From positions 62,001-126,000 of the forward strand of contig BGKB01000173.1 of the NCBI GenBank assembly GCA_003116975.1: a stretch of 64,000 bases of DNA. Direction: 5' to 3'. Of this stretch, positions 2,719 to 46,289 are shown piece after piece. Within the stretch, counting starts at the first letter, position 1. Each line of letters opens with the position of its first letter. A program made the position numbers and the translations under genes. The DNA comes from Aurantiochytrium sp. KH105. Lineage: Eukaryota > Sar > Bigyra > Thraustochytrida > Thraustochytriidae. The notes below the pieces were generated by a model. The model was given only the letters and a program-made list of their open reading frames with translations. It searched no databases and was not told the origin of the DNA.

Positions 2719-2751
2719 CAGCAGCAGCAGCAGCTGCTGCTGCTGCTGCTG
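2719..2751. repeat. (CAG)5(CTG)6 perfect palindrome
   Basis: Five CAG triplets run directly into six CTG triplets, giving a near-perfect 30-base palindrome with no loop. It could extrude as a cruciform or fold as an RNA hairpin. It lies in non-coding DNA. Confidence 0.85.
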
Positions 2752-3945
2752 CAGCTGGCTTTCAGTTGGCGTTTAGTTGGCGTTTAGTTGGTTGAGAGGT
2801 TGGTTGGTTGGTCGGTCTCGGTGCCAAAAAATCTTAGAGTTGGAGGCGGCAGCCATACTAGCCTTAGCTCACCCAAGAGCCAAGCTCAGTCAGCTGTAGC
2901 CTATTCAGCTGGCCTCGGTGAGCCACGAGTGGTGTGAAGAGTGGACAAACTATTGTCTTGGTGTTGGTGGTGGCGGCGACAACGGCGGTGATCTCTGTCC
3001 GGGATCTAGAAGGCCCAGTAAGTTAGACACTGTGAGTGCCTTTTCGGGACGGCATTCATGGCCACACGGTCACAAGCGACGGTTTGACGGCGTCCTAGGC
3101 CTCTACCAGTGTGTAGCAGTAGTACATACAAGTGCCAATGCAGGGCACACCTCGGCGTGATCCTGCAAGGAGCACAGTCACAGTGTCCGACTTGACGTAG
3201 ACCAGTCACCATAGGCTGCGCTCCCGCAACGTAGGCTATCTCTCGATGGCGCGCAAGCCTCGGTTAGGGCAAGAAGAAAACGACAAGCGCAGAGGACTGC
3301 GCGCAACTGCAACGAGAACAGCATTGGCTGTACACTCGCGCATTGACCCCCTCGTACCTCGGATCCGGGCGAACAGGACCGGAGCGTAGAGGCGCAGCCT
3401 ACGAGTCTTGCGCCACGAACGACGGCTCGCGTATCCATGCGCTCATGGTGGCCGCTCGGACCGCGAAGAGTACCACTCACCGCGGCCGCGCGAGCTCGGT
3501 CGGATAAAAACTGTCAGACGCCGCCAGCAGCACCGGGGTGCAGGCCATGCCGGAGCCGAGCGCAGTCTTTGCGCTCGCTGCACTGGCTGCCCTCGCACGC
3601 ACTCGCAGTCACATCGGGTCTCCTTTCTTTCCGACAAGGAGCCCGCGTATACCGGGGTGTGCGAAAGGGGCCGCGAAGACTAGGAACTACAAAAATTGGG
3701 CCGTTCGTCCCAGGACTCGGACGCGCGCGATCTGGCGATCAGCAAGTATGAACGCGAGCGCCGGAGCAGAGCTGCTTCGAGCGAGCGGGCGTGCGAGGCG
3801 AACCGTGCCCAAGCGGGCATTGACCGCGACACGTAAGCGAGCGAGCGAGCGAGCGAGCGAGCAAAACTAGCACGTTGCGCTGTACTGCGCTGCGTTGACT
3901 TGGAGACCAAGCGAGCGGCGAGAAAGAGACCCGCGGGGGGCAAGC

Positions 3946-5181: not shown

Positions 5182-5192
5182 GATTTTACCAA

Positions 5193-5198
5193 AATAAA
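5193..5198 (+). terminator. AATAAA poly(A) signal candidate
   Basis: Canonical AATAAA hexamer 11 bases after the stop of the DUF2236 gene. If used, the 3' UTR would be very short. No expression evidence. Confidence 0.4.
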
Positions 5199-5708
5199 GC
5201 CACCTACACTAGGCAAGTGCTTTTCATTGCACCGTGGGGGTTCGTCGTCGCAGGTCAAGCGCAAACACTTACTATTCAATAAAAACCAAGTTGTGCCACG
5301 AATTTCTCCACGTGCTTGTTGGGTCGAGAGATCACAACGACTACCAATCAAACAGTTGAGATCTACCGCTTACCAGCCTTGTAGAGGCTCCGCGACTCTG
5401 GTATTGTTTCTGGTATTGTTCGGAGTCCGGCGCTTTCTTTGCAGCGAGCATCCCTCTTACGGGTTCAATCAAGCCTTGCCTGTGGTGCGGAGGACCGCGG
5501 AGGGCTGCGGAACACTCTCCGCTGACCAGGGCTACAATCTTTTCTCTGCTGCCGGCTGCAGTGCAGCTGCTGCCAGCCCCTGCGTCAGCGTGCAGATGTG
5601 TTGCTAAACACCCTGGCCGGCCTCCGCACTATCTTGGACTGCGAGTTCCCGAAGATCTGGCTGCATCATGGCTTGGGTCCGGTGAGTCAAGAAAGAAGGC
5701 AAGCGAAG

Positions 5709-5819
5709 CGAAGCAAAGCAAAGCAAAGCAAAGCAAAGCAAAGCAAAGCAAAGCAAAGCAAAGCAAAGCAAAGCAAAGCAAAGCAAAGCAAAGCAAAGCA
5801 AAGCAAAGCAAAGCAAAGC
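5709..5819 (+). repeat. (AAAGC)n pentamer array in the 5' leader
   Basis: About 22 nearly perfect AAAGC units ending 68 bases before the ATG at 5887, so very likely within the 5' UTR or core promoter. The purine-rich strand is the coding strand. A shorter array of the same unit lies at 8515-8546. Length is probably polymorphic. Confidence 0.9.
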
Positions 5820-5886
5820 GCGAACGAAGAAGACGAGAGAAAGCGCCACAAGCTGAGGCGAGAGTTCTGCCTGCGTGCACGGCAAG

Positions 5887-7605
5887 ATGGAGCTCGAGTT
5901 TGCCGCCTCGGCGCGGCGACTGGAGCGTGAGCGCCTCGCTCGCAAGCGCGAAGTGGAGCGCAAGAAACGCAAGCAAGAAAAACTAAGCCGCGAGGCAGAC
6001 GCCATGCAGGCAAGGGTCGCACGTCTCGTGGAGGAACGTCGACGCGCGCGCGCACAAGAAGCGCGAGAGGCTGCAAGGCTCGAGGAGCAGAGCCAGGGTA
6101 TCCAACTCGATGTCAGTCTCTGCGTCAAACCACGCGCAAAGGCTGATACTAACCGCATTGTGCTGCCCAAAAGCGTGCTCGAAACGCTCGAGGCGCAGCG
6201 CGCTCTGGACATTGTCCAGGGTCCGCTGACATTTGCGGTGTCTGTCAATGTGGACGGGGTCGGCGTTGTGACCACGCACTGTGGCGTTGACGAGTTCACC
6301 GAGGATGATGGCTGCTGCGCTGTGCCTCCGGCCGTCGCTCTATCTCTTACCGGGGGTAATCAGGTCGACTGGCTGGTTGGGCGCCAGGTCCGTGTCCGCT
6401 TTGCGCAGCTTCCGCATCATGCCAAGGTCAAGGTCGCCTTCCAGCCGCGAGGTCAAGGATTTCATCGCGGTGAAGACGAAGTCGTCAACATTGACATCAA
6501 AACTGTTCTCTTGCGAACACTTCGCGACATGCTCACGCTTACCGAAGGCGACGTGGTGCCGATCCGCAACGAGGGCGTCACGTACGAACTCGTTGTGCGG
6601 CACATTTCTCCTGACCCGGCTATTCTCATTCTTAACACGGACGTTGAGGTCGATTTGATGCCTAGCGAGCGCGCCGAAGAAGAGCTTCGTCGCCGAGAAG
6701 ACCGCGCCACCTGGCTCGCGGCGCGCCGCGCGAGAATCGACGCCAAGCAAGCTGTTCTTGAAACCGCCGACAAAAATGAGGACAACAAGAAGAACGTTGG
6801 TGTTCCAAAGCGCTTTCCGTTGCGTTTGCGCATGCCCAGTGGCAAGACCTTTACGAGGACCTTTCAAGCAGATACGCCGCTCGAGCAGGTGCTCGACTGG
6901 GCCGCCATCAATCTTCCTGAGCCACCCTCAGATTTGCCTCTCCACGTGGAAGACAACGCGGAATTTTATCTTGTCCAAGCCCTTGCAGGTCGCACACAAG
7001 CTCGATACGACGTTTCAATGGCCGCGCGCTCACTCGCTGATCTCGGATTTGCTGGTCGCGAGTCGCTCCTTGTCAACTGGAACTACTTTCCGAGTGGCGA
7101 AGCACCTTCACAGGCAACAGAAGAAAACGTGCCAGAGGAAGGAACAAGCGGTGCAGCTTTAGCGTCGGCTTCGAGGCCTCCTGCAGCGCCACAAGAAACG
7201 CAAACTCCTTTGCAAGACATTGACAGCGACGAAGATAGAAGCGTCGGTAACAGTGCGGAACCCAAGGCTACAGCAACATTTACAGATGCTATGCAGGCAG
7301 CAGAGGCCCAGCTGGACCGCTCGTTGGAGGAGGAGAATTTGCGTAAAGCCATGGAGGCCTCGCGCGTTGATAAAGGCCCCAATGCCACGGAAGAGACCGC
7401 GGCCGACAAGGTCCATATTTTTCATAGTCTCGTGGCCAAGGGCGTGGCACCAACAGAAGCTGCTCAGGCAGCTCAGAAGTACCCTGACCAAATTATCGAG
7501 CTTGAGACGATGGGTTTTGTCGATCATGCCCGTAATCTCGAGCTCTTGGACCGCTATCAAGGTCGCCTCGAGCGCGTCGTCAACCTTCTCGCCGGCGGTG
7601 ACTAA
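5887..7605 (+). CDS. UFD1-like / UBX / UBA multidomain ubiquitin adaptor
   Basis: A 572-residue protein. The ATG at 5887 (context GGCAAGATGG) is preferred over an upstream GTG. Residues 1-80 are a charged helix or coiled coil. About 88-258 match the UFD1 N-terminal double-psi barrel, including RIVLPKSVLETL, THCGVDEF, a valine-rich strand and a closing segment ending VEVDLMP. About 307-401 look like a UBX beta-grasp fold (KRFPLRLRMP...), though the usual Phe-Pro-Arg loop that contacts p97 is not evident. After an acidic linker, the last 35 residues (ETMGF...LL.GG) look like a UBA domain. UFD1 works with NPL4 and p97/Cdc48 to extract ubiquitylated substrates; UBX also binds p97 and UBA binds ubiquitin. 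The architecture suggests a p97 cofactor distinct from plain UFD1, which has neither UBX nor UBA. Confidence 0.8.
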   Translation: MELEFAASARRLERERLARKREVERKKRKQEKLSREADAMQARVARLVEERRRARAQEAREAARLEEQSQGIQLDVSLCVKPRAKADTNRIVLPKSVLETLEAQRALDIVQGPLTFAVSVNVDGVGVVTTHCGVDEFTEDDGCCAVPPAVALSLTGGNQVDWLVGRQVRVRFAQLPHHAKVKVAFQPRGQGFHRGEDEVVNIDIKTVLLRTLRDMLTLTEGDVVPIRNEGVTYELVVRHISPDPAILILNTDVEVDLMPSERAEEELRRREDRATWLAARRARIDAKQAVLETADKNEDNKKNVGVPKRFPLRLRMPSGKTFTRTFQADTPLEQVLDWAAINLPEPPSDLPLHVEDNAEFYLVQALAGRTQARYDVSMAARSLADLGFAGRESLLVNWNYFPSGEAPSQATEENVPEEGTSGAALASASRPPAAPQETQTPLQDIDSDEDRSVGNSAEPKATATFTDAMQAAEAQLDRSLEEENLRKAMEASRVDKGPNATEETAADKVHIFHSLVAKGVAPTEAAQAAQKYPDQIIELETMGFVDHARNLELLDRYQGRLERVVNLLAGGD

Positions 7606-8514
7606 TCGACTGCCAGCCAGATCAAGAGTCCGGGAATGAGTTGTTATACTAGTAACCTTTTGTACTACCTAATGATTGTCTGAAACCATGCGTGAGCTCT
7701 GCTCTGCTGTTGCTTGTTGCTGTTATACTGCTATTTGACAGTGAGTCCACAGTTTCTGGACAGCTGAAAGCGCGCGCGCCTTGCGCTGTCCCCTGCAAGT
7801 CGGACTTTGGCGAGTGAAAGAGGCCCTTACAAGGCCTATCGGCAGCAGGCAGCCTGCCACTGCCTGGCTAGAAGCCGCCTCGATGGGCGCATGGGGCGAG
7901 TCCAATCTGCACCTGGCCGGTCTTGTCTTTAGTGAAGCCGGAGGGGAGGGCTCAGCTTATCGGACGCGATGCCCCTCTGGCACCACTGCCCCGCAATGAC
8001 TCCGGAGAGAGGGGGCCTGGCCTCAGAGTCCGCAGAGGGGGGGCGAGGAAGAAGCAAATTGTCGGCTCGTGCCGCATCGTCGCTCGCCGGTTTCGCGCCA
8101 CTGTCGCGTGCAGCGGCACGCTATGCCACGTCAAGTCGGAGGTGCTTTGCAAGGTTGTCGCAGCAGTTCAAGGCGAGCCGAGCGCTAGCCTCTTTCTGCA
8201 TGCCAATGGTCATCATTCATTCGCTGTCATTCACAATCATACTTTCTTTCTCTTGCGTGCGAGAGTCAAGAAGTGTCGGAGATCAATCCCATTTTTTTAT
8301 TATTGTACATTCTTTCCACCGCTCACTACAACCGCACCAAGCCAGCCAGACAGTACGCCGCACACGTAGAGTTCACTTGCAGGGCCTGCCGCAAGTGGGT
8401 TATCGCATCGCATCGGCCCCAGCGGCGGACGTGTGCGCCGCTCGCCCAGCCGGCCAGTGGCGGTCGGAGCCGAGGCCGGCGAGCCCGCAAGGCAAGACGA
8501 GGCAAGACAAGGCA

Positions 8515-8546
8515 AAGCAAAACAAAGCAAAGCAAAGCAAAGCAAG
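8515..8546. repeat. Short AAAGC pentamer run
   Basis: Five to six AAAGC/AAAAC units, the same unit as the longer array before the UFD1-UBX gene. Not next to a recognised start codon. Confidence 0.75.
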
Positions 8547-9220
8547 GCGGGCAGGCACGGGAGGGCAGCAAGCATCGCGAGCGGCCGGCCCCGGGCGGGT
8601 ACGTAGCACTCCTCGCCCGTCGAAGGAGGCAGCCAGCTGCAGCTGCGCTGGTCGCTGCAGCCAGAGCGGGCAGCACGCGCGCGTGCCTCTCTCTGCCCCT
8701 CTCCCTCTCTGCGCCTCTGTGTGTGTGAGAGAGAGAGACAGACTGTCTGTCTGTCTACGCGCGTGTGCGTGTGTGTGTGCGAGCGTGCGCGTGTGCGCCT
8801 GTGTGTGCAGGCAGGGGCGGAGGGGAAGTGGAGCTGTCTGGCTTGCGCAAGTGGATAGTTGACTGTAGGCGCGCGCGGGAAGTGGAGCAAAGCGCGGCGA
8901 AGAAGGAGCGGGAGGCGCGGAAAGCCGAGCGAGACGCGGAAGAACAGGAAGGGGAGCAACAAGGGAAAGCATGCAAGTAAGCAAGCAAGCAAGAAGGAGG
9001 GAAAGAAGAAGGCAGAGCTGCAAGTCTTGCCTCCGCAGAGAGCGAGCGAGCGAGCGAGGGAGCGCGTACGTGCCGGGCGCGGCGGCGGAGGCGGGCGCGG
9101 GCGGGCGCGCGGCGAGGCGCGCGGCGCGACGCGCAGCGTCTGCGCGCGGCGGCGCGGAGGAGGGGAGAGATCGGGAGAGCCGGAGGGAGCGAGCGAGCTC
9201 GGCCGACAGGCAGGCAGGCA

Positions 9221-31904: not shown

Positions 31905-34900
31905 ATGCAACAACAACAACAAGAATCAACGTCGCCACAAGAACTAGAAGGTCGGGTGCTCCGTTCGTTCGAGCATGGCACAAGGCGAAAGCGAAATGCT
32001 CCGCACACCGCTGCTGCAGAGGCCAACGAGGAGGGCAAAGACGACGCACAAGGTGCTCTCGACCGCGAAGCATTGACATCGGCCCATTCGCCCTCGAGCA
32101 TTCTTGAGGAAGACAACGACTCGAGCATATTGCACTTTGGCGTGTCTAAAAAGCGTCCACGTACTGTGCGCAGAGAGCTTCCGGGTCTCGAAGAAGTACT
32201 GCAGGACTTGGAAAGCGATCCTTGGTTTGCGCTGCAACAGCAAGAGCAACAACAGCAGCTAAAACAACATCACAATCTTGTACAGGAGCAGCCAGAGGAG
32301 GCGGATGCACGAAACCAAATGGTGCAAAGCAATCATCAAACAAGAATATATAACCAAGAAAGCAACCAGGTCGAAGACGACACACCGGAGGCAGTCATGT
32401 CCAAGCTACGCAGTCTCGCACCGCAAATCATGCAGAGACGTTCCAAAGTAGGCGATGATACGGGAAGCATCCGACGCCGTTGGGTAAAGAAAGCAGCTCC
32501 TCTGGAACTGCCAACAATGACGATGATCACGCCTCGAACACGAAAGAAAATCGAGAGATTACCACGGCCCGGGCCTGCAGAATTGGCACGACTCGCAGAA
32601 TTCGACGAAAATTTTCTGAGCATGGATCAAGAGCGCGAGATCGGACATGCAGCAGGCGAGAAACAAACCTTGTATTCGAAGCTATGGATCGTGGCAAGGA
32701 AACGAGCCTATGATCTCCACATGCTGCCTCCGGTACCTCTGCGTGATCGTATAAAAGTCGTGAGTCAACCTCTTGGTAAAAAGCGTAAATTAGCGAAAGC
32801 GCGCGAATCCAAAATACCTGAGGCACCGAAGATGCGGCTCTCGCCTCACAGAGATCAAGAGCAAGCTGCCGGAGACTTGCAAGACCGAGAAAATGAACTG
32901 ACCTTTGCAGAACCTCGTGTCTCAATGCTTCGAGATCGCCTGCAGCGCGCCGATGCAGCCACAGAAGCAGCAAGAGGCCGTATCGGGGAGCTATTGCAGG
33001 AAACCCGGAACATTGTTCCTGCCACGGCATTATTCGAGCACCGCCTCAAAAACTTGCTGTCGGCGGCTTCGCGAAAGAACCAGAACAAGTTGCAGCGAAT
33101 GCTCACTCGCCTTGTTCGCAAATACCAGCGTGCTCAGCTCCTTCCGAGCTGGAACAAGTGGCGTGGGGCCATCGACTTTCTCCGCCTGGAGTCCCAAAAC
33201 GCTGCGGCACGGCGCATTCAGTCGCTTTTTACGAAAGCAAGCTGCAAATATGAGCTTGAAGAGCGTGCACGTCAACAAATTCGACCGCGAGAGCGCCATG
33301 AAGTTCAATTGGCGCATCGAATTGAGCTCCGTCGGCGAGGCCCTGAACCCTTGCAGCGAGCATTTCGAAAATATTGCGCGCGACGAGAACTGGCGTATCT
33401 GCGACGCCGGCGCGAGGCCGTTGTTTGCGTGCAGTGCGCTTGGCGCGCTCGGAATTGCCGGATTGTGCTCGCTGCCCTCCAAGCAGCAAAGCTCCACCGC
33501 AATCAGAGCGCAACGCACATCCAGCGCGTTTTTCGTGGTCATTGCGCACGGGTTCGAGCAGGCCTCTTGCGCAAAGTCGAGGCCGTGGCGGCCAAAGAGC
33601 GCGCTCGTCTGGCCGCGCAAGCCGCAATTGAAGCACGGCTTATGCGCATTGGCGCTGCTGCACTCATGCAAGGCTGGTGGCGCAGTCTTCAGCGGCGCTG
33701 GCTCACACGCGCGATGGTCATGGTTATGAAGAGACGCGCAGCAATCCGAATTCAGAGCTTTTGGCGGTCAGTGTGGGCTGTACTTGAGCTTAAAAGGGCC
33801 ATCGCGAGAAAGCGCGATCAAGACGCTCGCGAAAGCGCAGCGGCAACCATGCTGCAAAAGAGATTTCGCATCAGACGCGCTCAAGCGCTTGTGGAGCGCA
33901 TCAAGGTAGAGGCGGCCGAAGAAAAGGCGCAGCGGGACGCAAGTCGCATCGAGAATATGCAAGACCGAACCATGAACATTTTTGGGCGGACGTTCAATGT
34001 TACCAAGAACCGCCGCGTCTTGCACGAATTGCGGAGCAAGATCGACCCCTTCACGGCGTCCCGACAAGAACGAGCCGCGACACGGATTCAGCGCGTCTGG
34101 AGAGGTTATCGTGCTCGTCGTCGCGTGAAGCGCCGACGCGCAGCAGAAAACCATGTACTCTCCAAGTTACGTCGCGACAAAGTCCGAGCCGCAGCTTTGC
34201 AAATGCAAAAGCGCTGGCGTGGCATTCGCGAGCGCCGTCGACTTGAGATGGAGCGCCAGAACCGCGCGGCCTCCTTGATACAGGCAAAGTACCGTGCTCG
34301 CATTGCCAGACGGAACTTCTTGCTCATTCTCGAGCGCCATAAGGCTGCCAGCAGGGTGCAAAAACGCTGGAGAGGGCGTCTAGCGCGAAAGATGATGGTC
34401 CTTTTTCGTGAGGAAATGCGAGTGCAGAATGCAGCTGCGAGGGTATGCCAGCGTGCGGTGCAGCGTTATTTGTTTCGAAAGGGCTATCGAGATCGTCTCG
34501 AAAACGAACGCACCTGGTTCGAACTCCGTCAGCAAGGTGCGATTGAAACGATCCTGGCCAAGCGCGCCGAGGGGTACCGTATGCTTCTTCATTCGGGCTT
34601 TCTTAATAGCGCCAAGGGTGGTGGTGAGCTGCGAGCACTTTTTTGTGAGCTTTCAGAGCCGCTGGCACAACTCTCTGGGGACAAGTTTGTCAAGATGGTC
34701 CTCGCTTGTCCCGGTCTGGCCCATCTCGAGCGCAAGACGCTTGACATCATTTTTGCCAAAGCTAAAAAACCTGATAGTAAGCTGCTCGGCTATCCCGAGT
34801 TCCGTGAGTCTCTCATTGGCCTGGGAATGCACCTCTACGTTGCAGAGGGCGTCGACGCCAAGATTAAAGCGTACAAGGAAACTGTGCAGGCTGAGCGAGC

Positions 34901-37343
34901 AAAGGCGAAGCGCGGAAGGTTCAGTGGTGGTTCATCAGGTGCGGCGCAGAGCGCAGAGGCTGCACGTGCACAGCGGCAAGCGGAAAAGGATGCCGATAAA
35001 AAGGCGGAGACGCAAATTCGGGATGAGGCCATTGGTCAATTCACCTTTCGTCGTCATCGTGGACGTCGCGGTCTTCTTTTGCGCGTTCTCCATGAGCACA
35101 TCTGGAACATGGGGTTTGCGCAACGACAACGGGAAGCGCTCGATGCCCGTGCCGCGCGACGAATGGAATGGGCTTCGGTGATGGTGCAACGACGTTTTCG
35201 TGGAGTTGCGAGCCGCAGCATTCTCGATCGTATTCGTGAGCAGCGACATCGTGAGATCGAAGCAGAGCGACAGCGAGCGGCAAGTACTCTGATTCAAACC
35301 TTTTGGCGAATGTGTCTTGCAAAACGTAGAGTTCGTGCGCTTGCGCGGCGGTGTCTGCAAAAATGCATCGACGCAGAAACGGGTGATCCGTACTGGTTCA
35401 ACACACAAACAGGAGAAAGTTCGTGGACGAAGCCCAAGCTGCTTGGCAATGATGAGGCAGAGGTGAGCATTGTCATGCCTCAAAAAGACGACGAATTCGT
35501 GATCAAGTGCGCCAAGTGCAGAGCAGAAATGGCTACTGTGGCCTGTCTCGACTGTGCGGACCCCTTTTGTGAAGACTGTCACAGGCAAGAGCACCATGGC
35601 GCCACGATGCACACCAATATTCCCATTCCCCTCTGTACAGAGTGCAACTTTCAAGCAGCAACGCGGAACTGCGCGCCGTGCCAGCGCAAATTTTGCTGTA
35701 GTTGCTTCGAGATGGCCCACTTTATTAGTCCTCCATGGCAAGACGAGCCTGTGTGCGCACAGCCGAGTGAGGAGCAATCGCAGCTGGCAGCGCACAAGTG
35801 GCAACCTTTGATCAAAGTTTGCGCCGAGTGCGATGCTCGAGCAGTGCGATGGCGGTGCGAAGAGTGCGGCGATGACTTTTGCGCACGCTGCCTCAAGGAC
35901 CTCCATCGAAAGGGCAATCGACGCCTCCACAACTTTCATCCGCTGTCCTATCACTCGCTGCAGCTCGAGGTGCGGGAGCGCCAGGTGCGCGCTAAAAAAC
36001 GCGCTATTGCAGAGAAGGAGCGACGCAAGGTGATGCAAAAACAGGCCGAGCAAGACAATATGGAAAAGGTTGCTCTCAAGCTGCAATCTCTCTATCGCGG
36101 AAGGCGAGATCGTGCTGTGGGAAAGAGCTTGCTACGCGACGCCCGTCTGCGAGAGCGCAAGCACTGGCGACTTGTCAAGCACGATATGGCAGAGAGGAAA
36201 AAGCTCAATTACCGTCTTCAGGCTGCCGTCGGAATCGCTCCGATCTTGGAAACGGACGACGACGAGACAAAGGACAGAAAGCGCATGGGATGGAAGGCAA
36301 CCCCCTGGGGACGCGCGGCAGTCGCTGCGGGTGTAGCTCTGCCTATTGGAGAGGCACTACCTGGCCCAATTAAGGTTCATGACAATGAGACTTTGTTCAT
36401 TCATGTAATCGAGGAGTGGCGCTCTCTCATTAGTGTGGATGAATACATTCGTCTGGACAATCAGTACTTTCTCGTCAAGCACATTGGCGAGCAAGACGAA
36501 AATGACCCCGGCAAGCCCGTGGACACGGTCCAGATGATGCGAGAAGAAAAGCTCCGCAAACGGCAAGAGAACGACCCATGGGCAGTCGCTGCTGCTTCCG
36601 AGGAATCGTCAACTGCGGGCGAGACCGGGAAAAGCAAGAAAAAGAACAACAAGAAGAAAAAGAAGAAGACAAAAGATCAGAACTCGGGAGAAGATCAAGG
36701 CGGTGAAGTTGGCCCTGAGGGAGTTCAAGATGATCCTTCTGCGAAGGAGTCTAAATCGTCAGAAAACGAACGCGAAAAGAAGAAACGCGCGCGTCGAGGA
36801 ATCATGAACAAAGCAAAGCAAGTCAAAAAGAAAGGGTTCCAGGCATGCACACTCCAGATACACCTCGATGCTCCTTTTAGCGGAGAGATTCCTGTTGAAG
36901 TACGTGGTTTCTTCGTCGGCAGTTTCAACCTCGCTCAAGATGCGATTGTCAAGGCGAAGCGCGCGGACAAGCAGGCCATCAAAGAGAAGATGGGGGGCCG
37001 ATTTGCCGATGTGATGGCCAAGACCAAAGAATTCATTGCAGAAAAAGCAGATGAGTACATTGATCCTGATACAGCCGCGCGTCTCAATAAGCGGTTCACT
37101 GGTGTTGCAAGACTCGTCGGAAAGCGACGAAGCTCGATTGCGTCTCTTGAAGATATGGACGACGAGGACTTGGGCGAAGCAGACGAGGCCCCAAAAGTTT
37201 CGACTCCCCCAAAGTCTGCGACCCAAGCCGCGAAAGCGTCCTTGCCACCGGGTTGGGAAGAATTTTTAGATGATGCAAGTGGAACGCCTTATTTCTACAA
37301 CCATAGTACGGGCGAGTCTGTTTGGGAACGTCCCTTCGAGTAG
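31905..37343 (+). CDS. Giant IQ-repeat protein with two WW domains and B-box-like zinc fingers
   Basis: An 1812-residue single-exon protein. The N-terminus is Gln-rich and disordered. From about 430 to 880 there is a dense array of IQ-type repeats (IQRVFRGHCARV, IQRVWRGYRARRR, LQMQKRWRGIRERRR, IQAKYRARIARR and others), with more near 1090, 1130 and 1385; about 15 in all. Around 900-985 is a segment resembling an EF-hand or TPPP-like fold (ELRALFCELSEPLAQLSGDKF...). A WW domain lies near 1155-1190 (GDPYWFNTQTGESSWTKP), followed by Cys/His clusters at about 1205-1345 that look like two or three B-box zinc fingers (CAKCRAEMATVACLDC, CAECDARAVRWRCEEC). A Lys-rich linker follows, then a C2-like or unassigned region, and a final WW domain (LPPGWEEF...YFYNHSTGESVWERP) at 1781-1812. 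It is probably a calmodulin-binding scaffold, perhaps ciliary. Domain calls are firm, function inferred. Confidence 0.85.
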   Translation: MQQQQQESTSPQELEGRVLRSFEHGTRRKRNAPHTAAAEANEEGKDDAQGALDREALTSAHSPSSILEEDNDSSILHFGVSKKRPRTVRRELPGLEEVLQDLESDPWFALQQQEQQQQLKQHHNLVQEQPEEADARNQMVQSNHQTRIYNQESNQVEDDTPEAVMSKLRSLAPQIMQRRSKVGDDTGSIRRRWVKKAAPLELPTMTMITPRTRKKIERLPRPGPAELARLAEFDENFLSMDQEREIGHAAGEKQTLYSKLWIVARKRAYDLHMLPPVPLRDRIKVVSQPLGKKRKLAKARESKIPEAPKMRLSPHRDQEQAAGDLQDRENELTFAEPRVSMLRDRLQRADAATEAARGRIGELLQETRNIVPATALFEHRLKNLLSAASRKNQNKLQRMLTRLVRKYQRAQLLPSWNKWRGAIDFLRLESQNAAARRIQSLFTKASCKYELEERARQQIRPRERHEVQLAHRIELRRRGPEPLQRAFRKYCARRELAYLRRRREAVVCVQCAWRARNCRIVLAALQAAKLHRNQSATHIQRVFRGHCARVRAGLLRKVEAVAAKERARLAAQAAIEARLMRIGAAALMQGWWRSLQRRWLTRAMVMVMKRRAAIRIQSFWRSVWAVLELKRAIARKRDQDARESAAATMLQKRFRIRRAQALVERIKVEAAEEKAQRDASRIENMQDRTMNIFGRTFNVTKNRRVLHELRSKIDPFTASRQERAATRIQRVWRGYRARRRVKRRRAAENHVLSKLRRDKVRAAALQMQKRWRGIRERRRLEMERQNRAASLIQAKYRARIARRNFLLILERHKAASRVQKRWRGRLARKMMVLFREEMRVQNAAARVCQRAVQRYLFRKGYRDRLENERTWFELRQQGAIETILAKRAEGYRMLLHSGFLNSAKGGGELRALFCELSEPLAQLSGDKFVKMVLACPGLAHLERKTLDIIFAKAKKPDSKLLGYPEFRESLIGLGMHLYVAEGVDAKIKAYKETVQAERAKAKRGRFSGGSSGAAQSAEAARAQRQAEKDADKKAETQIRDEAIGQFTFRRHRGRRGLLLRVLHEHIWNMGFAQRQREALDARAARRMEWASVMVQRRFRGVASRSILDRIREQRHREIEAERQRAASTLIQTFWRMCLAKRRVRALARRCLQKCIDAETGDPYWFNTQTGESSWTKPKLLGNDEAEVSIVMPQKDDEFVIKCAKCRAEMATVACLDCADPFCEDCHRQEHHGATMHTNIPIPLCTECNFQAATRNCAPCQRKFCCSCFEMAHFISPPWQDEPVCAQPSEEQSQLAAHKWQPLIKVCAECDARAVRWRCEECGDDFCARCLKDLHRKGNRRLHNFHPLSYHSLQLEVRERQVRAKKRAIAEKERRKVMQKQAEQDNMEKVALKLQSLYRGRRDRAVGKSLLRDARLRERKHWRLVKHDMAERKKLNYRLQAAVGIAPILETDDDETKDRKRMGWKATPWGRAAVAAGVALPIGEALPGPIKVHDNETLFIHVIEEWRSLISVDEYIRLDNQYFLVKHIGEQDENDPGKPVDTVQMMREEKLRKRQENDPWAVAAASEESSTAGETGKSKKKNNKKKKKKTKDQNSGEDQGGEVGPEGVQDDPSAKESKSSENEREKKKRARRGIMNKAKQVKKKGFQACTLQIHLDAPFSGEIPVEVRGFFVGSFNLAQDAIVKAKRADKQAIKEKMGGRFADVMAKTKEFIAEKADEYIDPDTAARLNKRFTGVARLVGKRRSSIASLEDMDDEDLGEADEAPKVSTPPKSATQAAKASLPPGWEEFLDDASGTPYFYNHSTGESVWERPFE

Positions 37344-37576
37344 GAAAGACAAGAGCACAAGCGCGGGCAACAATTTGCAAAGAGGCCGAATTTACAAAAC
37401 AAGTATGAACAACATGAACATTTTTATTTGTAACAAATAAGGAACTCCTGCAAGGAGAAAGAAAAAGGAAAAGAAGAGAAAAAAACAAACAAACGAACAA
37501 ACAAACACGCAAACAAGCAAAGTAGACTTCTCCTCTTCGCGACAAAGGGTCATTGTGCGTGTGTTGCTTTTAATTT
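37344..37576. other. Convergent 3' region between the giant IQ gene and the cyclase gene
   Basis: About 230 bases, AT-richer, with TTTATTT near 37419 and CAAA/AAAC repeats at 37483-37517. AATAAA-like hexamers are available on both strands for 3' end formation. Confidence 0.45.
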
Positions 37577-40500
37577 TCAGTGTTGCGACTGCTTTCGACG
37601 CATTAAATGGAGAGGATTCTCATACTCTACCACATCCTCATCCTGTGTGGCACCATCGAGATCCTTGATAAACCACAGTTTCTTGTCGCCTGCACGCGCC
37701 ATTCTCTCTGTCTGTGCCTCGTCCTCATCAAACATAAGAGACCGATGGAAAGCAATTGCGATGGGGTGTGCTACACTCACACTGCAGCGCACAAAGCGAC
37801 AATCCCGGCCGCGACAAGCAGCGAAAAACCTGCTGTACAGCGAGCGGCCAATGCCTTGACGCCGAGCCCATGGAAGTACTGCGCAGGCATCGATGGATCC
37901 GGACATTTGTCCAAAAAGGACAACCAATTTGCCCATAATGTAGCCATCAATCTCACCCGCAGAATTTTGTGAGACAAAGGACATACCTTCGCACTCGTAG
38001 TACATGTTACTCGAATGATTCGGCATGTAATGATCCGTAGACGACGGGCTCCCTGGCTCTTCCCAGAACTGCTCCAAGGTGCCTGCCTGGGAAATTGCGT
38101 TGAAAGCCTCGGGAGTCATTGAAGCACAAGACACCCCATACGTGATGCCCGGGACGCCAGTTGTCTTGGAGGGCCGCGTCTTCACTGTCGAAAGTTTGCG
38201 CTGATTCCGTGAGCCGTTGGAGCCCCGAGGGCCATGCCCGAAGACAGACTTGAGCATGCCCGTCTTGGAATTGCGGGTTTGAAGCGGCCTCGACGCGATT
38301 TTCGGCTGAACAGCATCGTCATCGTAGTCCAGATGCTCGCGACCTGCGTCCGGGTCCGACGAGTACGAGACACTTGTAGCCCGCACAAGGGAGCGTTTGC
38401 TACCCCCCATCTCACCAGCGCTGGCGGCCGACTCGGAGGCGCTCGCGTCAATGGACAATTCGCCGCCCGGACCCTGAATTTTCAGCAAGTCAATCTCGTA
38501 CTGGACCTTGTACACCCACTGCACACGATCCTCTTCGTTCTCGCAGCCAAGTGTAAAGGTGCGCATGTCACCTCGTTCCTTGCCCTTTTTGATCCAGCGG
38601 TTCGTACGGATCGTGAAGCAGTACAGAGGAGCGGGGCCAGCACCGGGCGTAAGCTTGGACTCAATACCAAAGTAACCAATTGGGTCAATGGAGACTTCGG
38701 AAGTCCGCTCAATGATGATGGTCTCGAGGCCCTTAGCCTCGTCGCTGTCGTAATACTGAACGAGTTTGTGGCCACGCAGGTGACACCAGCGCGGTTTCCA
38801 GGGGCTCATGATGTTGCGCGCGTTTTCCTTGCGAATTTGCAAAAAGCCGCTGTGTTCGACCTGAAACGTATTCTCTGCTGCCTTTTCCAGGTGCAAGAGC
38901 TTTTGCTGTTCCTCCCACTCCTTTGTGATTCGCTTCTTGGCTGCCACAAGTTTGCGCTTTTGCTTGTTGAGCATGCGGTGACGGAGAATTTCCACCATCC
39001 ATCCGGACTCGAAGCTAAATTTCACCTTGTCGGTATCCTTCCTCTCCGCCATGCCCTCGTCGCGGCGAGCGTAGACGATGACGCCCGTATCGATGAGTTT
39101 CTGAAAGTTCTCCTCGAGCTGCTCATTCGTGTGTTCAATCGGAAAGATGGACTTGACAAGTCCGAGCGTGAAGACGTCACCAATAATGGATGCCACCTTG
39201 ATGATGAGCTGCTGCACGAGCGTCATCTTATCGATGAGAGCGCCGACGATGGCCTCCACGGACAAGGGAATGGGCACGGCATGAATGTTGGCGAGACGCT
39301 CGAATTCATCGCCAACAAAGGCGAGAACCGGTTCCGGACTGGTTTGCCGTTCGATGAGCTCGAGCTCTGTGTAGTACGCGATGGCGTCGGCAATGTAGAG
39401 TGGGTTTCCCTTGGTCTTTTTGCGAATGAAGGAGATGAGAGCTTCAGGCATGTTGTCCACTTGGGCGCAGTTGCAAATAATGTCAAAGGTGTTGGACGGG
39501 CGCGCGGCAAGCACAAGATTTTCTACGCCTTCGAGCTCGGTCAGAGACTCGAAAAAGAGCACAGCCTTTTCAAGTTCTGTTGCCATGGAAGCGCGTGCCT
39601 GTAGCTGTTCCCTGACCGCAGCGGACATGTGTTCCTCCCAGGCTGCGTGCATCTTGACGGGAACCGGACGAAACATGGAGACGCGTTCGTTCGCATTCCC
39701 TTGTGTCAGGCTTTCGTCTTGCAGCGAGAAATGAGAGAGGCGACGCAACAGAATGATAAAGACATTGGACTTGTTCCACGTCGCGACGATCTCCTGGAAG
39801 ACAAAAAGGGAAAAGGTGTCGAGGTACTGGCTGTCGTCCACCACGACGGTGAGGGGAATGCGGGCAGCAAGCCCGCCGAGAATGGTTGCAAGGATGCGAA
39901 TGACGCTCTCGGCCTCGGGATTCGCCACAAAGGCAGCGACAGTATTCGTAAAACTTACCGACCTTCGAAGCGAATGCCGGATACGTGACACCTGCGAAGC
40001 GAAAGCGCCCGCGACGCCGCTGCCGGTGCCTGCTCCTCCCGCAGAGGCTGCGCCGGCGGCAGCTCCCTTGCGACCGAGGCTATCCTCACTGTACGGAGTC
40101 CAGTTCATGCCGAGCGCCTTGAGGCGCGTTGGCTTGCCATTCGCGCCAAAAACGGTCTTTGACTTGGCCAAACCGAGTGCCTTCTTGGTCTGCTTCGGGG
40201 CCGCGCGCCCAAGAGTGGAGCCGGAGCTCGGTGCAAGCAACGAGGATGCAACTTGGCCGGGTGGCACCTCAAAGCTGGTACTGAGGATGTCATTGAGGAG
40301 ATAAAGCCGGTCCTCGATGTCTTCGGCAACGACTTCGGGCCCGTAGGATCGGCGCGCAGCTTTGATGGCGCGGACAATGTGATCCTCGCGCGTCAAGGAC
40401 TTGTCATCGCCTTCTGCAGAGTCGAGAAGCTCGGATATGATGTGCGTCCATACCGCAAAGGGGCGGGCGCGGCGACCGGTCTCAAAAGGGTTTCCCCGAG

Positions 40501-42754
40501 CATAGGCAAAAATCGCCTCGCCTTCATCGTAGGCGGCGCCATCGTCACTAAAGAGAAAGTTCTCCACAAGATGCGTCTTGCCGACACCCTGCTCGCCGCT
40601 GAGCACAACAAGACGCGAACCGTTGCCAGCAAAGACGTCTTCTTGAAAGCCGGCAAGAGCCGAGCGAATGTAATCGGTGCCATTGGGGTCTGGACCATTG
40701 CGCGAGGCAATAATGTTGCGCCGTGACTGAAAGCGCGTGAGAATCATGGTGAGAACCTCGGTGCTGGAAAAAGGAAGAGTCGAGAGCAAACGCTCCGGGT
40801 CAAGGGTGGTCCGCTCGTTGTCCCGAAGCCATAGTAGCTCGTAGTATGCCGGGTCAGACGCGCTGGGGTCAATAAAGCCCTTGTTGATGAGGTTGCTGAT
40901 GGCCGCCTCAGTGAGGTCGAGAACGGTCTCCATGCGAGTCTCGGAAACTGCAATGGTGCATTCGATTTCATCACCTTGGTTGCGATAGCGGATGCGCGCA
41001 AGGAAAACATCATCATCCGCGTCCTCGTGGTCATCTTCGTCGGCTGCGAAGTGTTGCAAGTGCTGGGTTGTACTTTCGGAGAGCTCCTTGTCGTGACGAC
41101 GATCATGCTTGCGTGCCTTTGCGGCGCGCCTCTTGGCGAAAAACCCACTCGTGTCGTTGAGAGCCTTGACTTGCTGTTCTTCAAGGCTCATCATCTCCTC
41201 TGGACTGACAACGACGTGCGAAGGGTTTAAGTCCCTCCAGCGCGTCCTTTGCTGGGTCACGCGAATGTTGTGTTGCGTGAGGGTGCCGAGGCGGGCAAGG
41301 TGAACAGAGTGAAAGTCGTGGGCCTCAGGGTGTAGATGAGCCCCGCTCCTGATTTGAAAACAGTGAACGGGTTCGCGCTTACCCTTGACGGAGACGTCGA
41401 CAGGGTAAAAATCCAGGGAAGAGTTGGTGAGGCGCCCCTTGGTTGTGCTGTCAATGAGGATGGTGCTCTTGCGTGAGCGTGCATTCTGCATGAGACGTGC
41501 CGCAAGATTGACCGAGTCGCCAATGACGGAATACTCTCGGCGATTGCCCGAAGCGTGCCCAATAATACCACAAAAGGCGAGACCGGTGGCGATGCCGACG
41601 GCGCCTTGTAGCTGGTAGTTGGAGAGCTTGTAGAGCACCTTGAGACCACTGAGTACGCCGCGCAAAGGGTCGTCTTCGTGACCAAAGGGGGGAAGGCCAA
41701 AAACGGCAATGAGGGTTGCTCCCTTGTCGTCAACGAGAAACTTATTGATGGTTCCCTCATAGGAGAGAACGACGCTTTGAATCTTGTCAAAGACACCTGC
41801 AAGCATTTCGTCCTTGTCTCCCTTCATGATTTCATTCATGTTGAGACCAAGACTGAAGAAAAGAGTTGTCACCGTGCGAAGCTCAGGTGCCCAAAATGCG
41901 TCGTTGGACACAAGCAGGTACGGCATGACAGCATTCGGGACGTACTTCCAGAGCTTGCGCTCCGTTTCGAGGCCAGAAGCGATGGTCCGATCGTAAATCT
42001 TCCACGCGACGCGGCATTCTGCGCGCCAGTCCTTGACAATGACGTGGCCGCCGGAAATCTTCTTTTCCTGTACAAAGAAGGACCCCACCTTGTCCCAAAT
42101 TGTGCTGCTCACCACAACCTCGCCGGGCTTTGCAACATTTTCACTATCAATCGCTTCTGCAAGTGCTTGTCCAATGGCCAGGTATTCAAAGCGTTCACGC
42201 TGGATGAGGTCGTCGTGACCGCCAAGATGCATAATGTTCAGGGATCCACAACCGAGGCCGAGCTTGACGCGTAGCGTGCATTCTTTGCGAGGTGCCTTCT
42301 TCCCATCAGGCAGAGTCTCAACGTCTCTAAACTCGGTGTCTTTTTCGTAGACGCTAAAGACGAAGTTGTCGAGGCGTAATTGGATTTCTCGAGCGCACTG
42401 GACGGCCCGCTGCACACGCTGCGTGTAGTCGCCCTCGTCGATTTGCGGCCAGAGAGTGATGACGGCATCGCCTGCAAATTTGAGGACGTCGCCGCCCGAC
42501 TTGCTGACTGTCTTGACGATCTGCGTCACGAATTTGTTGAGGTTCATGGAGAGTTCCTCGAGTCCATCGGGTCCGAGGCTGCACAGCTCCTCTGTGAGCG
42601 AGGTGAACCCGCTCATGTCTGCAAAGAGGCAGACGATCTCGTCAAAGTGCTGCGTCTGCGGCCGAAGAGGGCCATCTTCGTCGCGCTCGGTGTTGGCAAT
42701 ATGCTGCGCCACCACGGCGGGCAGGTAGAACTGCAGAGCGTCCAGCTCCTTCAT
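37577..42754 (-). CDS. Soluble adenylyl cyclase with NTPase, PH and GNAT acetyltransferase regions
   Basis: A 1725-residue single-exon protein. The first cyclase domain (about 35-195) has both metal-binding aspartates, Asp46 in FADMSGFT and Asp96 in GGDVLKFAGDA, corresponding to the ADCY10 pair. The second (about 290-450) has Lys338 in INKF and Asn416/Arg420 in SVNLAARLM, the purine-binding and transition-state residues. So a complete ADCY10-like pseudo-heterodimeric catalytic centre is predicted to make cAMP from ATP. A STAND/AAA-type NTPase follows, with Walker A SGEQGVGKT near 717 and a Walker B-like VVVDDSQYLD near 955. A PH domain spans about 1299-1425 (SGFLQIRKEN...WKPRWCHLRGHKLVQYY). 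The last about 150 residues form a GNAT domain (VLPWARRQGIGRSLYSRFF near 1630, the RxxGxG acetyl-CoA loop). Human ADCY10 has TPR-like sequence instead of PH and GNAT. The start is the first ATG of the frame. No internal stop or frameshift seen. Confidence 0.88.
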   Translation of the reverse strand: MKELDALQFYLPAVVAQHIANTERDEDGPLRPQTQHFDEIVCLFADMSGFTSLTEELCSLGPDGLEELSMNLNKFVTQIVKTVSKSGGDVLKFAGDAVITLWPQIDEGDYTQRVQRAVQCAREIQLRLDNFVFSVYEKDTEFRDVETLPDGKKAPRKECTLRVKLGLGCGSLNIMHLGGHDDLIQRERFEYLAIGQALAEAIDSENVAKPGEVVVSSTIWDKVGSFFVQEKKISGGHVIVKDWRAECRVAWKIYDRTIASGLETERKLWKYVPNAVMPYLLVSNDAFWAPELRTVTTLFFSLGLNMNEIMKGDKDEMLAGVFDKIQSVVLSYEGTINKFLVDDKGATLIAVFGLPPFGHEDDPLRGVLSGLKVLYKLSNYQLQGAVGIATGLAFCGIIGHASGNRREYSVIGDSVNLAARLMQNARSRKSTILIDSTTKGRLTNSSLDFYPVDVSVKGKREPVHCFQIRSGAHLHPEAHDFHSVHLARLGTLTQHNIRVTQQRTRWRDLNPSHVVVSPEEMMSLEEQQVKALNDTSGFFAKRRAAKARKHDRRHDKELSESTTQHLQHFAADEDDHEDADDDVFLARIRYRNQGDEIECTIAVSETRMETVLDLTEAAISNLINKGFIDPSASDPAYYELLWLRDNERTTLDPERLLSTLPFSSTEVLTMILTRFQSRRNIIASRNGPDPNGTDYIRSALAGFQEDVFAGNGSRLVVLSGEQGVGKTHLVENFLFSDDGAAYDEGEAIFAYARGNPFETGRRARPFAVWTHIISELLDSAEGDDKSLTREDHIVRAIKAARRSYGPEVVAEDIEDRLYLLNDILSTSFEVPPGQVASSLLAPSSGSTLGRAAPKQTKKALGLAKSKTVFGANGKPTRLKALGMNWTPYSEDSLGRKGAAAGAASAGGAGTGSGVAGAFASQVSRIRHSLRRSVSFTNTVAAFVANPEAESVIRILATILGGLAARIPLTVVVDDSQYLDTFSLFVFQEIVATWNKSNVFIILLRRLSHFSLQDESLTQGNANERVSMFRPVPVKMHAAWEEHMSAAVREQLQARASMATELEKAVLFFESLTELEGVENLVLAARPSNTFDIICNCAQVDNMPEALISFIRKKTKGNPLYIADAIAYYTELELIERQTSPEPVLAFVGDEFERLANIHAVPIPLSVEAIVGALIDKMTLVQQLIIKVASIIGDVFTLGLVKSIFPIEHTNEQLEENFQKLIDTGVIVYARRDEGMAERKDTDKVKFSFESGWMVEILRHRMLNKQKRKLVAAKKRITKEWEEQQKLLHLEKAAENTFQVEHSGFLQIRKENARNIMSPWKPRWCHLRGHKLVQYYDSDEAKGLETIIIERTSEVSIDPIGYFGIESKLTPGAGPAPLYCFTIRTNRWIKKGKERGDMRTFTLGCENEEDRVQWVYKVQYEIDLLKIQGPGGELSIDASASESAASAGEMGGSKRSLVRATSVSYSSDPDAGREHLDYDDDAVQPKIASRPLQTRNSKTGMLKSVFGHGPRGSNGSRNQRKLSTVKTRPSKTTGVPGITYGVSCASMTPEAFNAISQAGTLEQFWEEPGSPSSTDHYMPNHSSNMYYECEGMSFVSQNSAGEIDGYIMGKLVVLFGQMSGSIDACAVLPWARRQGIGRSLYSRFFAACRGRDCRFVRCSVSVAHPIAIAFHRSLMFDEDEAQTERMARAGDKKLWFIKDLDGATQDEDVVEYENPLHLMRRKQSQH

Positions 42755-44538: not shown

Positions 44539-45834
44539 CTAGACCAAGCCCACTTGAAAGAAGAGAATGCCAAGCGTGCCAGCGAGAAGTCCAAGAAGAG
44601 CCCATTGCGGGATATTCGAAGTTGACTCAGGAGAGGCGGCGGTGGGGCGGCCGGACCACTCTTCCTTGAGCCACTTGATGGTTCGGCGATTTGCCTCTTC
44701 GATAGAGAAGAGCGGCGAAAACCCGAGGTTGTGGAGCGCTTCCTCGTCTGTAAAGGTCATGTCATCCACGATGGCCAACACGGATTCGGGCGTAAAGCTG
44801 TTCCTAGGGCGAAGTGCTCTCGGAATGAGCGAAAGGAGGAAGACCACGATGTGAGCGAGAACCGACATGATCCATGCGGGTACCCGGCGCGTGGGAACAG
44901 GTATGTCAAACGCCTCAAGAAAGGGTGCAATTGCTTCATAAAAGGACCTTGGCTCTTCGTGTGAGAGATTAAGTGCGCGTCCTGCGATTTTGGAAATGCG
45001 ATTTTGATCTTCGCTTTGCAAAACGTTGATCGCGCAGAGATGCCCGTAAGCGGCATTGCCAATATACATGTTATCTTGTTGCGGTTCGTTCATGCCAATG
45101 CGAAAGGACATGAGGCCTTGAAGGCCAGCTTGAACGACTTGTGGAACCAAAACTTGGTCGTGCTCACCATACACGTTGCGCAGACGCAAGGCGCATGTAC
45201 GAAGCATTTGGGGTTGCTTTGCAGCGTCTTTTGTATCTGAAGAAGTTTGTACGCTGCAAAGACTATTGTCAGCCGCTACACAGAGCGACTCGGCAATGGC
45301 CTTGGAGAAGGCATAAAGGCCTCCACTGTAATCCTGAGGAGCTGCAGGATACGGTGCGTCAGACTTGAGGTTTCTGTTGTGACCCATATGGGAGATTGCG
45401 GTCGTGGAGCTTGTGTACACGAGCGAGGAGACGCCGGAGGCGCGGCAGGCGCGAATGACACAGCGCATTCCCTCAACATTGACTTGAAGCAGCTTTGTCG
45501 GCGAGAGATCACCCGTGCCATAGTCAATAAGGCTTGCCGCATGAATTACGACATTGCATCCCGCAAAGGCCTTGCGCAGGAGCGTCTCGTCGAGCACGGA
45601 TCCGGCGATGTACTTGAAAACGGGGCGAGAGGTACTTTTGCTCTCATTCGCGAGCAGGTCTGTAAAATTCGACCCCGCGGGCTTGACGAGGTCTAGCGCT
45701 CGGATCTCGAACACTGGCTTAGCAGTGTGCTGTTCGCCGAGCAGTCTGCAGATCGTGGAGCCCACGCCGCCGCAGGCTCCCGTAACGCAGACCACGAGGC
45801 CTTCTGCGTTGCCTTCGTCGCCGCTGCCTGCCAT
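44539..45834 (-). CDS. 3beta-hydroxysteroid dehydrogenase-type short-chain reductase, membrane anchored
   Basis: A 431-residue protein from the ATG at 45834 (CAGAGATGG). The frame upstream is GAGC-repeat leader sequence. It has an N-terminal Rossmann fold with Thr18-Gly-x-x-Gly-Gly-Val-Gly25 and the catalytic pair Tyr174 and Lys178 in YAFSK, as in extended SDRs of the 3beta-HSD/NSDHL group. VYTSSTTAI supplies the catalytic Ser/Thr strand. Two hydrophobic stretches, about 335-352 (MSVLAHIVVFLLSLI) and the last 22 residues, suggest ER-membrane anchoring like sterol-4alpha-carboxylate 3-dehydrogenase. The likely reaction is NAD(P)-dependent oxidation of a 3beta-hydroxyl in sterol or steroid-like substrates. 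It is head to head with the ELMO-domain gene, 455 bases between start codons. The exact substrate is uncertain. Confidence 0.8.
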   Translation of the reverse strand: MAGSGDEGNAEGLVVCVTGACGGVGSTICRLLGEQHTAKPVFEIRALDLVKPAGSNFTDLLANESKSTSRPVFKYIAGSVLDETLLRKAFAGCNVVIHAASLIDYGTGDLSPTKLLQVNVEGMRCVIRACRASGVSSLVYTSSTTAISHMGHNRNLKSDAPYPAAPQDYSGGLYAFSKAIAESLCVAADNSLCSVQTSSDTKDAAKQPQMLRTCALRLRNVYGEHDQVLVPQVVQAGLQGLMSFRIGMNEPQQDNMYIGNAAYGHLCAINVLQSEDQNRISKIAGRALNLSHEEPRSFYEAIAPFLEAFDIPVPTRRVPAWIMSVLAHIVVFLLSLIPRALRPRNSFTPESVLAIVDDMTFTDEEALHNLGFSPLFSIEEANRRTIKWLKEEWSGRPTAASPESTSNIPQWALLGLLAGTLGILFFQVGLV

Positions 45835-46289
45835 CTCTGGTGCGCTCGCCGCCCTCACTCGCTCGCTCGCCGCCCTCGCTCGCTCGCTCGCTGACAACGC
45901 CTTCAACCTTGCAAACGCCGGGCGCCCCGGCGAGCGCGCGGCTTCTGCGCGGCGCCGGAAATGCGCGTGCGGTCGACGCGGCAGGGCTCGCTGCCCTCGA
46001 CTGAGGTCTGCACGCGCCGACGACGTGCCGTGCCTAGTACACTAGAGACCCCTGCGTCTCTCTCTTCGGTCACGCAAAACCCGTTTGCAGAACTTCGCCG
46101 AGGCCGCGCGGCAGACGCGTATCTTTGCGCGATCGAGGGCCGCGCGGGCGGGCGCGGCGCAGCGCGGGCGCTCTCGGCGCGGGCCGGGCGGCGCGCTCGC
46201 TGGCGCGCGGAGGGAGCAGGGCCGGAGTTCTCCGGGGGAAAAAGGCAGTCGAGCGCGTCGCTCGGTTTTGTCGACGGACGCCAAGCGAG
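45835..46289. promoter_or_regulatory. Bidirectional GC-rich promoter region
   Basis: About 455 bases between divergent starts. GAGC tetramers (minus-strand sense) at 45855-45895 begin about 20 bases before the dehydrogenase start. The rest is CpG-rich. No TATA-like element near either start. Confidence 0.4.

Follow-up and report, generated by a model that had tools for sequence, protein, structure and literature searches.

We describe here a gene of the thraustochytrid Aurantiochytrium sp. KH105 that encodes an adenylyl cyclase type 10 (ADCY10)-like dual cyclase, a STAND-type NTPase, a PH domain and a C-terminal GNAT acetyltransferase domain on a single polypeptide of 1725 residues. The gene lies in a stretch of 64,000 nucleotides of contig BGKB01000173.1 (assembly GCA_003116975.1, positions 62,001 to 126,000), hereafter the window. 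The GNAT tail is not a one-off, as the C-terminal enzyme varies among the sister cyclases of this genome, being a GNAT here and a phosphodiesterase (PDE) in two sister genes. From sequences and structure models we propose, with confidence and doubt in equal measure, that the protein is a membrane-tethered, STAND-gated cyclase to whose C-terminus an exchangeable enzyme is flexibly attached, in this case a GNAT whose targets are probably proteins close by.

Four domains on one open reading frame

The frame runs on the minus strand from an ATG at 42754 to a stop codon ending at 37577 and has no internal stop; 1725 stop-free codons would be expected with a probability of about 7e-30 from base composition alone (G+C of the frame 55.7%). 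The assembly comprises 76 Mb in 367 contigs and most cyclase matches in it are paired, which we took to represent two haplotypes. A second contig repeats the whole frame at 99% identity and is read as the other haplotype. The original prediction, made from the sequence alone and without giving a strand, had claimed a continuous frame of 5.2 kb encoding cyclase, STAND NTPase, PH and GNAT in this order. Both points held: the frame is open in both haplotypes and kept in relatives, and four Pfam families score above their cut-offs along it, namely Guanylate_cyc (PF00211, 49.3 bits against a curated cut-off of 21.9, in two stretches), AAA_16 (PF13191, 45.8 against 32.6), PH (PF00169, 36.5 against 25.1) and Acetyltransf_1 (33.0 against 20.7). 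The features are as follows.

37577 to 42754, minus strand: complete open frame, 1725 residues, C1-C2 cyclase, STAND NTPase, PH and GNAT; intact second haplotype copy
42080 to 42673, minus strand: cyclase half C1, residues 28-225; metal sites Asp46 and Asp96, Lys92, Lys164 and Ile202 (alignment to PDB 4cm2)
41351 to 41974, minus strand: cyclase half C2, residues 261-468; Lys338, Ser409, Asn416 and Arg420 (PF00211; PDB alignment to residue 423)
40685 to 41023, minus strand: residues 578-690, possible beta-grasp or ubiquitin-like region (beta-beta-alpha-beta-beta order in a low-confidence model)
39455 to 40684, minus strand: STAND-type NTPase, residues 691-1100 (PF13191; conserved in relatives)
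40574 to 40597, minus strand: Walker A, GEQGVGKT, residues 720-727 (from the sequence)
39833 to 39853, minus strand: Walker B, LTVVVDD, residues 968-974 (VVVDD at 970-974); Asp973 invariant among relatives
38885 to 39454, minus strand: GNPL motif (residues 1116-1119) and winged-helix-like STAND part, residues 1101-1290 (from conservation)
38492 to 38860, minus strand: PH domain, residues 1299-1421 (PF00169), with K1309-x10-K1320-x-R1322
38135 to 38479, minus strand: disordered linker tethering the GNAT, residues 1426-1540, about 115 residues (pLDDT below 50 over model residues 270-376)
37655 to 38134, minus strand: GNAT acetyltransferase, residues 1541-1700, with the acetyl-CoA loop R1631-R-Q-G-I-G1636

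By a simple count the two haplotypes differ within the frame by 93 synonymous and 14 nonsynonymous changes, an overall ratio of nonsynonymous to synonymous polymorphism (pN/pS) of 0.045. By region, and on small counts, the ratio is 0.037 in C1, 0 in C2, 0 in residues 471-577, 0.24 in 578-690, 0.039 in 691-1100, 0.023 in 1101-1290, 0.090 in the PH domain, 0.23 in the linker and 0.050 in the GNAT. The values being similarly low, constraint on the GNAT appears to resemble that on the cyclase.

A phmmer search of the PDB aligned the N-terminal part with adenylate cyclase type 10 chains (residues 28-225 and 261-423; E 9.5e-33 for the whole protein). The full dual site that had been claimed (Asp46, Asp96, Lys338, Asn416 and Arg420) aligns with its human soluble adenylyl cyclase (sAC) counterparts, the aligned pairs being Asp46/Asp47, Asp96/Asp99, Lys92/Lys95 and Lys164/Lys144 in C1 and Lys338/Lys334, Ser409/Thr405, Asn416/Asn412 and Arg420/Arg416 in C2. 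The roles of these residues in the sAC site were taken from the accessible table and text of PMC12867704 and PMC12250328. Because the catalytic residues and the Lys/Ser pair for adenine are kept, ATP is the likely substrate.

The NTPase module follows C2, as in ADCY10-type enzymes. A P-loop, a Walker B of the form hhhhD[DE] and a G-x-P motif are the STAND signature, and the module has all three (GEQGVGKT, VVVDD and GNPL), with the key positions conserved in relatives, which bears out the Walker A/B NTPase of the original prediction. The insert between Walker A and Walker B is poorly conserved. We label residues 1101-1290 winged helix on what we take to be the usual STAND layout, and the structure model is poor over this part. 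Upstream of the NTPase, residues 578-690 have no Pfam match and the best Foldseek E-value for the whole model was 0.0096, none falling below 0.001; given also the low pLDDT, a Ras-association or ubiquitin-like domain was not taken beyond an idea.

The PH domain is modeled with a pLDDT of mostly 71-86 (a loop at 37-53) and matches the PH domain of Grp1 in Foldseek (E 1.2e-5). Its assignment comes from Pfam and Foldseek, the other list of fold matches covering only the GNAT part of the model. K1309, K1320 and R1322 are invariant in the window protein and three relatives and form the basic K-xn-K/R-x-R pattern expected of phosphoinositide binders, in keeping with the PH claim; this pattern is associated with phosphoinositide binding and is also common among PH domains without lipid binding. 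The linker between PH and GNAT is poorly conserved among relatives.

The domain order is conserved in relatives

The best protein match is the NCBI entry "Adenylate cyclase type 10" of Hondaea fermentalgiana, a thraustochytrid (Bigyra, Stramenopiles); it has 1725 residues, is 100% identical over residues 1290-1725 and differs overall from the window protein by a handful of residues. A search with the tail found four proteins, this entry and P0003, P0004 and P0005 (tail identity 55, 43 and 41%; full-length identity 61, 50 and 43%). The same domain order in other proteins, which had been proposed as a check, was thus found: P0003, P0004 and P0005 each contain the same four Pfam families above cut-off, in the order cyclase, NTPase, PH and GNAT, and stop at nearly the same place. 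The cyclase match of P0005 is marginal (24.0 against 21.9 bits) and the database's own Pfam list for this protein lacks the cyclase. P0005 is probably truncated, as it starts inside C1 and its longest contig has 5459 bases. A search with the P0005 tail found three proteins, none of them new; both searches require shared 5-residue words and limit candidate length, and the one with P0005 scored only those 7987 candidates that had the most such words in common. An artefactual frame is rejected, since the frame is conserved in relatives and in the second haplotype.

Sister cyclases carry other C-terminal enzymes

Searching the genome itself gave 31 matches, which correspond to 12 dual-cyclase genes when allele pairs are counted once. 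The sequences retrieved were a single allele for each of the 11 other dual-cyclase genes, five further cyclase loci and the second allele of the window gene. Pfam was run on the longest frames of the 16 non-allelic loci except L044, 15 in total. Introns were ignored in reading the frames, and a tail encoded by a separate exon would have escaped notice.

Two sister genes encode a phosphodiesterase. L029 (G000:C160:76300-86200, ORF 663-8579, minus strand) encodes 2639 residues with Guanylate_cyc, PH (34.5 bits) and PDEase_I (279.6 bits); its AAA_16 match is below cut-off and a Walker A is present. The PDE of L029 starts about 690 residues past its PH domain. By eye we suspected a C2-like domain at residues 1600-1820 of this protein, where Pfam has no match. 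L030 (G000:C139:120200-130100, ORF 2023-8970, minus strand) encodes 2316 residues with Guanylate_cyc and PDEase_I (163.3 bits). It has no Walker A pattern, no PH domain was found in its tail, and its NTPase may be degenerate. The PDE motifs HN..H and HD..HPG.N are intact by eye in both proteins, and L029 is a possible self-limiting cAMP source.

The junction that precedes the GNAT is shared as well. In blastp, residues 1160-1426 of the window protein align with residues 1321-1600 of L029 (E 2.7e-17), winged helix and PH in one stretch. L031 (1796 residues; Guanylate_cyc, AAA_16, a PH match of 16 bits below cut-off and no tail enzyme) aligns with the window protein from the winged helix into the PH (E 1e-5) and probably carries a PH alone as its tail. 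Both alignments are unbroken through the 1101-1290 part into the PH. No C-terminal enzyme was found at E 0.01 in the other eight genes, L032-L039; sub-threshold C-terminal matches are DUF6817 in L033 and TPR_MalT in L036. In a maximum-likelihood tree of the cyclase regions (14 rows) the window type (3 rows), L029, L030 and L031 fall on one side with a support of 91/89. A label for this tail group, named after the tails were seen, needs 1 change on the tree against 4.8 in shuffles.

Another locus, L043 (G000:C21:344500-354400, ORF 4608-8936, minus strand), has a cyclase domain near its C-terminus and an ion-transport match of 19.1 bits, below cut-off; it is a possible channel-cyclase fusion. 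Over both haplotypes the genome contains 154 cyclic-nucleotide (cNMP)-binding and 25 PDEase_I domain matches, counts in which some domains are split into several matches; this amounts to a rich cyclic-nucleotide network.

The tail is a GNAT of predicted N-terminal-acetyltransferase type

Profile and fold searches alike support the C-terminal GNAT with an RxxGxG loop of the original prediction: both the GNAT fold and the R/Q-x-x-G-x-G/A acetyl-CoA loop are found, at R1631-x-x-G-x-G1636, and Acetyltransf_1 matches all four members of a profile built from the window protein and its relatives. Against the PDB this profile retrieved Naa20, YqjY, Naa10 and Ard1 (E 1.3e-10 to 7e-5). Except for YqjY, the best profile matches, and most of the listed fold matches, are N-terminal acetyltransferases (Naa20, Naa10, Ard1, Naa50 and RimI). 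As these are among the closest by profile and fold, we class the domain tentatively as a GNAT of the N-terminal-acetyltransferase type. Beyond the CoA loop, GEIDGY, H1580 and W1564 are invariant in all four GNATs, and the domain is likely to transfer acetyl groups, as far as its sequence tells.

Searched against its own genome, the GNAT region matched the two haplotype copies and nothing else. A profile search for a donor of the domain gave 27 matches at E 0.01 or less (best 3.8e-10), and all seven that carry an organism name are actinobacterial; at an identity of 28-48% over 27-85% of the query this is too little to claim transfer.

Proposed mechanism and alternatives

STAND modules are as a rule switches governed by nucleotide state and assembly. 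In the mechanism we propose, the PH domain would place the protein at a phosphoinositide membrane, where the NTPase, through its ATP/ADP state or oligomerization, would set cyclase output, perhaps together with pH, bicarbonate not being a direct switch. The C-terminal slot would hold an enzyme working where cAMP is made. A PDE in this slot, as in the sister genes, would limit the same cAMP pool; for the GNAT, acetylation of the protein itself or of partners at the same membrane patch would be likelier than that of a diffusible small molecule. The disordered linker before the GNAT and the distant PDE of L029 make the layout better suited to a tethered enzyme acting nearby than to rigid allostery. 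By analogy with the PDE sisters, whatever occupies the slot may shape the same local signal, which for a GNAT would most simply mean acetylation of the protein or its neighbors. Acetylation and cAMP would thus be coupled by co-localization and a shared switch, and not through a cAMP-binding domain. Of the coupling of cyclase to acetylation at a membrane that had been suggested earlier, the part that stands is the presence of the domains on one polypeptide. Coupling through a cAMP-sensing GNAT is not indicated, a Pfam scan of the whole protein at E up to 1 having found no cyclic-nucleotide-binding domain (PF00027). More tentatively, we suggest that thraustochytrids have evolved a small family of membrane-anchored STAND-cyclases with an exchangeable C-terminal slot, in which a PDE would make a self-limiting source and a GNAT a cAMP source that writes a lasting acetyl mark on itself or its neighbors, joining ATP, acetyl-CoA and phosphoinositide status.

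Several observations weigh against the proposed mechanism. The absence of a detected PH or Walker A in L030 makes a uniform chassis only partly true. In the tree, the branch of the tail group falls short of the program's strict threshold for support, relationships within the group did not resolve and seven end branches are long. The GNAT itself departs from expectation at its candidate catalytic positions. Many GNATs use a tyrosine of helix 4 as general acid, and the Naa20 chains of our alignment have Tyr there; this position is His1670 in the window protein, His in P0003 and P0004 and Gln in P0005. No GCN5-type Glu is found at what we take to be the start of strand 4, and P0004 has Ser at the first Gly of the loop. 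For these reasons the GNAT may bind acetyl-CoA without transferring the acetyl group. At a pTM of 0.34 for the tail model, the relative packing of its domains is not readable. The cyclase too could be weak, given Ile202 opposite Arg176 of human sAC, as neutral residues at Lys95/Arg176 of the human enzyme also much reduce its catalytic activity (PMC12867704, accessible part).

The most serious alternative, which we nevertheless consider fairly unlikely, takes up the helix-4 substitution: with the acetyl-CoA loop kept while the tyrosine is His or Gln, the GNAT would be an acetyl-CoA sensor of weak or lost catalysis that reports carbon status to the NTPase and cyclase to which it is physically tethered, and an oil-making cell would thereby tune its cAMP to the supply of acetyl-CoA and ATP. 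Thraustochytrids do run on acetyl-CoA for lipid making. However, the invariance of GEIDGY, H1580 and W1564 is what one would expect of a substrate site, the tails of the sister proteins are PDEs with intact motifs and hence enzymes rather than sensors, and His also occupies the helix-4 position of YqjY, which its PDB title calls a probable acetyltransferase.

Somewhat less probable again is that the substrate of the GNAT is a small molecule or diffusible amine, the fusion serving only to place two unrelated enzymes under common regulation. Sequence is a poor guide to GNAT specificity, and aminoglycoside and phosphinothricin acetyltransferases occur among the weak profile matches, but the predominance of protein N-terminal acetyltransferases among the best PDB profile matches (YqjY apart) and most listed fold matches speaks for a protein substrate.

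A bicarbonate-sensing ADCY10 homologue, as the original prediction had suggested, is very improbable. Lys92, the counterpart of human Lys95, is kept, but of the mammalian pair of bicarbonate residues (Lys95 and Arg176) the second is lost, Ile being found opposite Arg176 in all four proteins, Phe in L029-L031 and Ala or Gly in seven other sister genes; L037 aligns an Arg, at a point where its alignment is untrustworthy. According to the accessible parts of the sources, Arg176 is the bicarbonate switch residue of human sAC (PMC12250328), and sea urchin sAC (Asn at the Arg176 position) and salmon sAC (neutral at the Lys95 position) are bicarbonate-insensitive and activated by alkaline pH (PMC12867704). 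Restoring Arg in the sea urchin enzyme did not return bicarbonate sensitivity, so that this position is not the whole story, and with few exceptions non-mammalian sACs are substituted at one or both residues (PMC12867704). With the human switch residue replaced by Ile202, direct bicarbonate gating of the window cyclase is unlikely.

That two genes were read as one, PH-GNAT being a separate transcript in frame by chance, is barely credible: a splice-acceptor-like CAG lies about 130 nucleotides 3' of the stop, but the frame is open in both haplotypes, linkage and near-identical stop are conserved in four proteins and the PH junction is common to L029 and L031.

Gene ends and neighboring genes

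On the minus strand 3' of the stop (37423-37577) a long pyrimidine tract ends in the CAG, at 37448-37450, and resembles a splice acceptor; an AATAAA is found at 37423-37428. This tract leaves the 3' end of the gene model tentative. Donor-like sites occur in the frame at residues 933 and 1659. An intron from residue 1659 to the acceptor beyond the stop is disfavored, as relatives align across 1659 and end within a few residues of each other; residue 933 falls inside a poorly conserved insert.

A convergent neighbor on the plus strand (31905-37343) encodes 1812 residues with an IQ motif, WW domains and B-box zinc-binding domains, and 233 bases separate the two stop codons. Upstream of the cyclase gene, a gene of the 3-beta-hydroxysteroid dehydrogenase/epimerase family lies at 44539-45906 on the minus strand.

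Comparison with known systems

ADCY10 has a STAND-type NTPase after C1-C2 and a long TPR-like C-terminal part. The window protein resembles it in the C1-C2 pair, with metal, adenine and phosphate residues kept, followed by a STAND-type NTPase. It differs in having Ile for Arg176, in region 470-690 with its possible beta-grasp, and in a PH-linker-GNAT in place of the TPR-like part; the Pfam scan, run to an E of 1, found no TPR family. Naa20, Naa10, Ard1 and RimI share the fold and CoA loop of the GNAT, which differs from them by His or Gln for the helix-4 Tyr and by its fusion to a cyclase.

Like sea urchin sAC, the window protein keeps Lys95 and loses Arg176, whereas the sea urchin and salmon enzymes, each neutral at one bicarbonate position, are animal sperm proteins (PMC12867704, accessible part). 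In Type III bacterial GNATs such as MtPat, cAMP signaling and a GNAT are likewise on one polypeptide, but there the GNAT binds cAMP and is allosterically activated, whereas the window protein carries a cyclase and no cNMP-binding domain (PMC8556138, as far as available). CAPE, a combined adenylyl cyclase with PDE, is known from streptophytes, with CAPE-like proteins in non-photosynthetic stramenopiles, e.g. Saprolegnia (PMC8115329). It resembles L029 and L030 in the fusion of a cyclase to an enzyme of the cAMP circuit; in CAPE, however, the PDE comes first and the cyclase last, neither STAND nor PH is reported in the available part of that source, and the window protein has a GNAT instead of a PDE (PMC8115329).

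Among the titles and abstract openings listed by searches of open-licence papers we found no description of a cyclase joined to an acetyltransferase, nor of the order cyclase-STAND-PH-GNAT; the original prediction knew of none either. What we take to be new is the exchangeable enzyme end on an ADCY10-like cyclase; ADCY10 itself, cAMP-binding GNATs and cyclase-PDE fusions were known already.

As a rule, cyclase families diversify at their sensor end. In this one genome it is the enzyme end that varies, sisters differing by a GNAT or a phosphodiesterase. Through the loss of Arg176 a further lineage joins those whose ADCY10-like enzymes probably respond to a switch other than bicarbonate. Should the GNAT prove active, the protein would physically link cAMP production with acetyl-CoA-dependent modification in an oil-producing protist; it would also let one ask, in a natural setting, whether the second enzyme of a fusion acts back on the cyclase.
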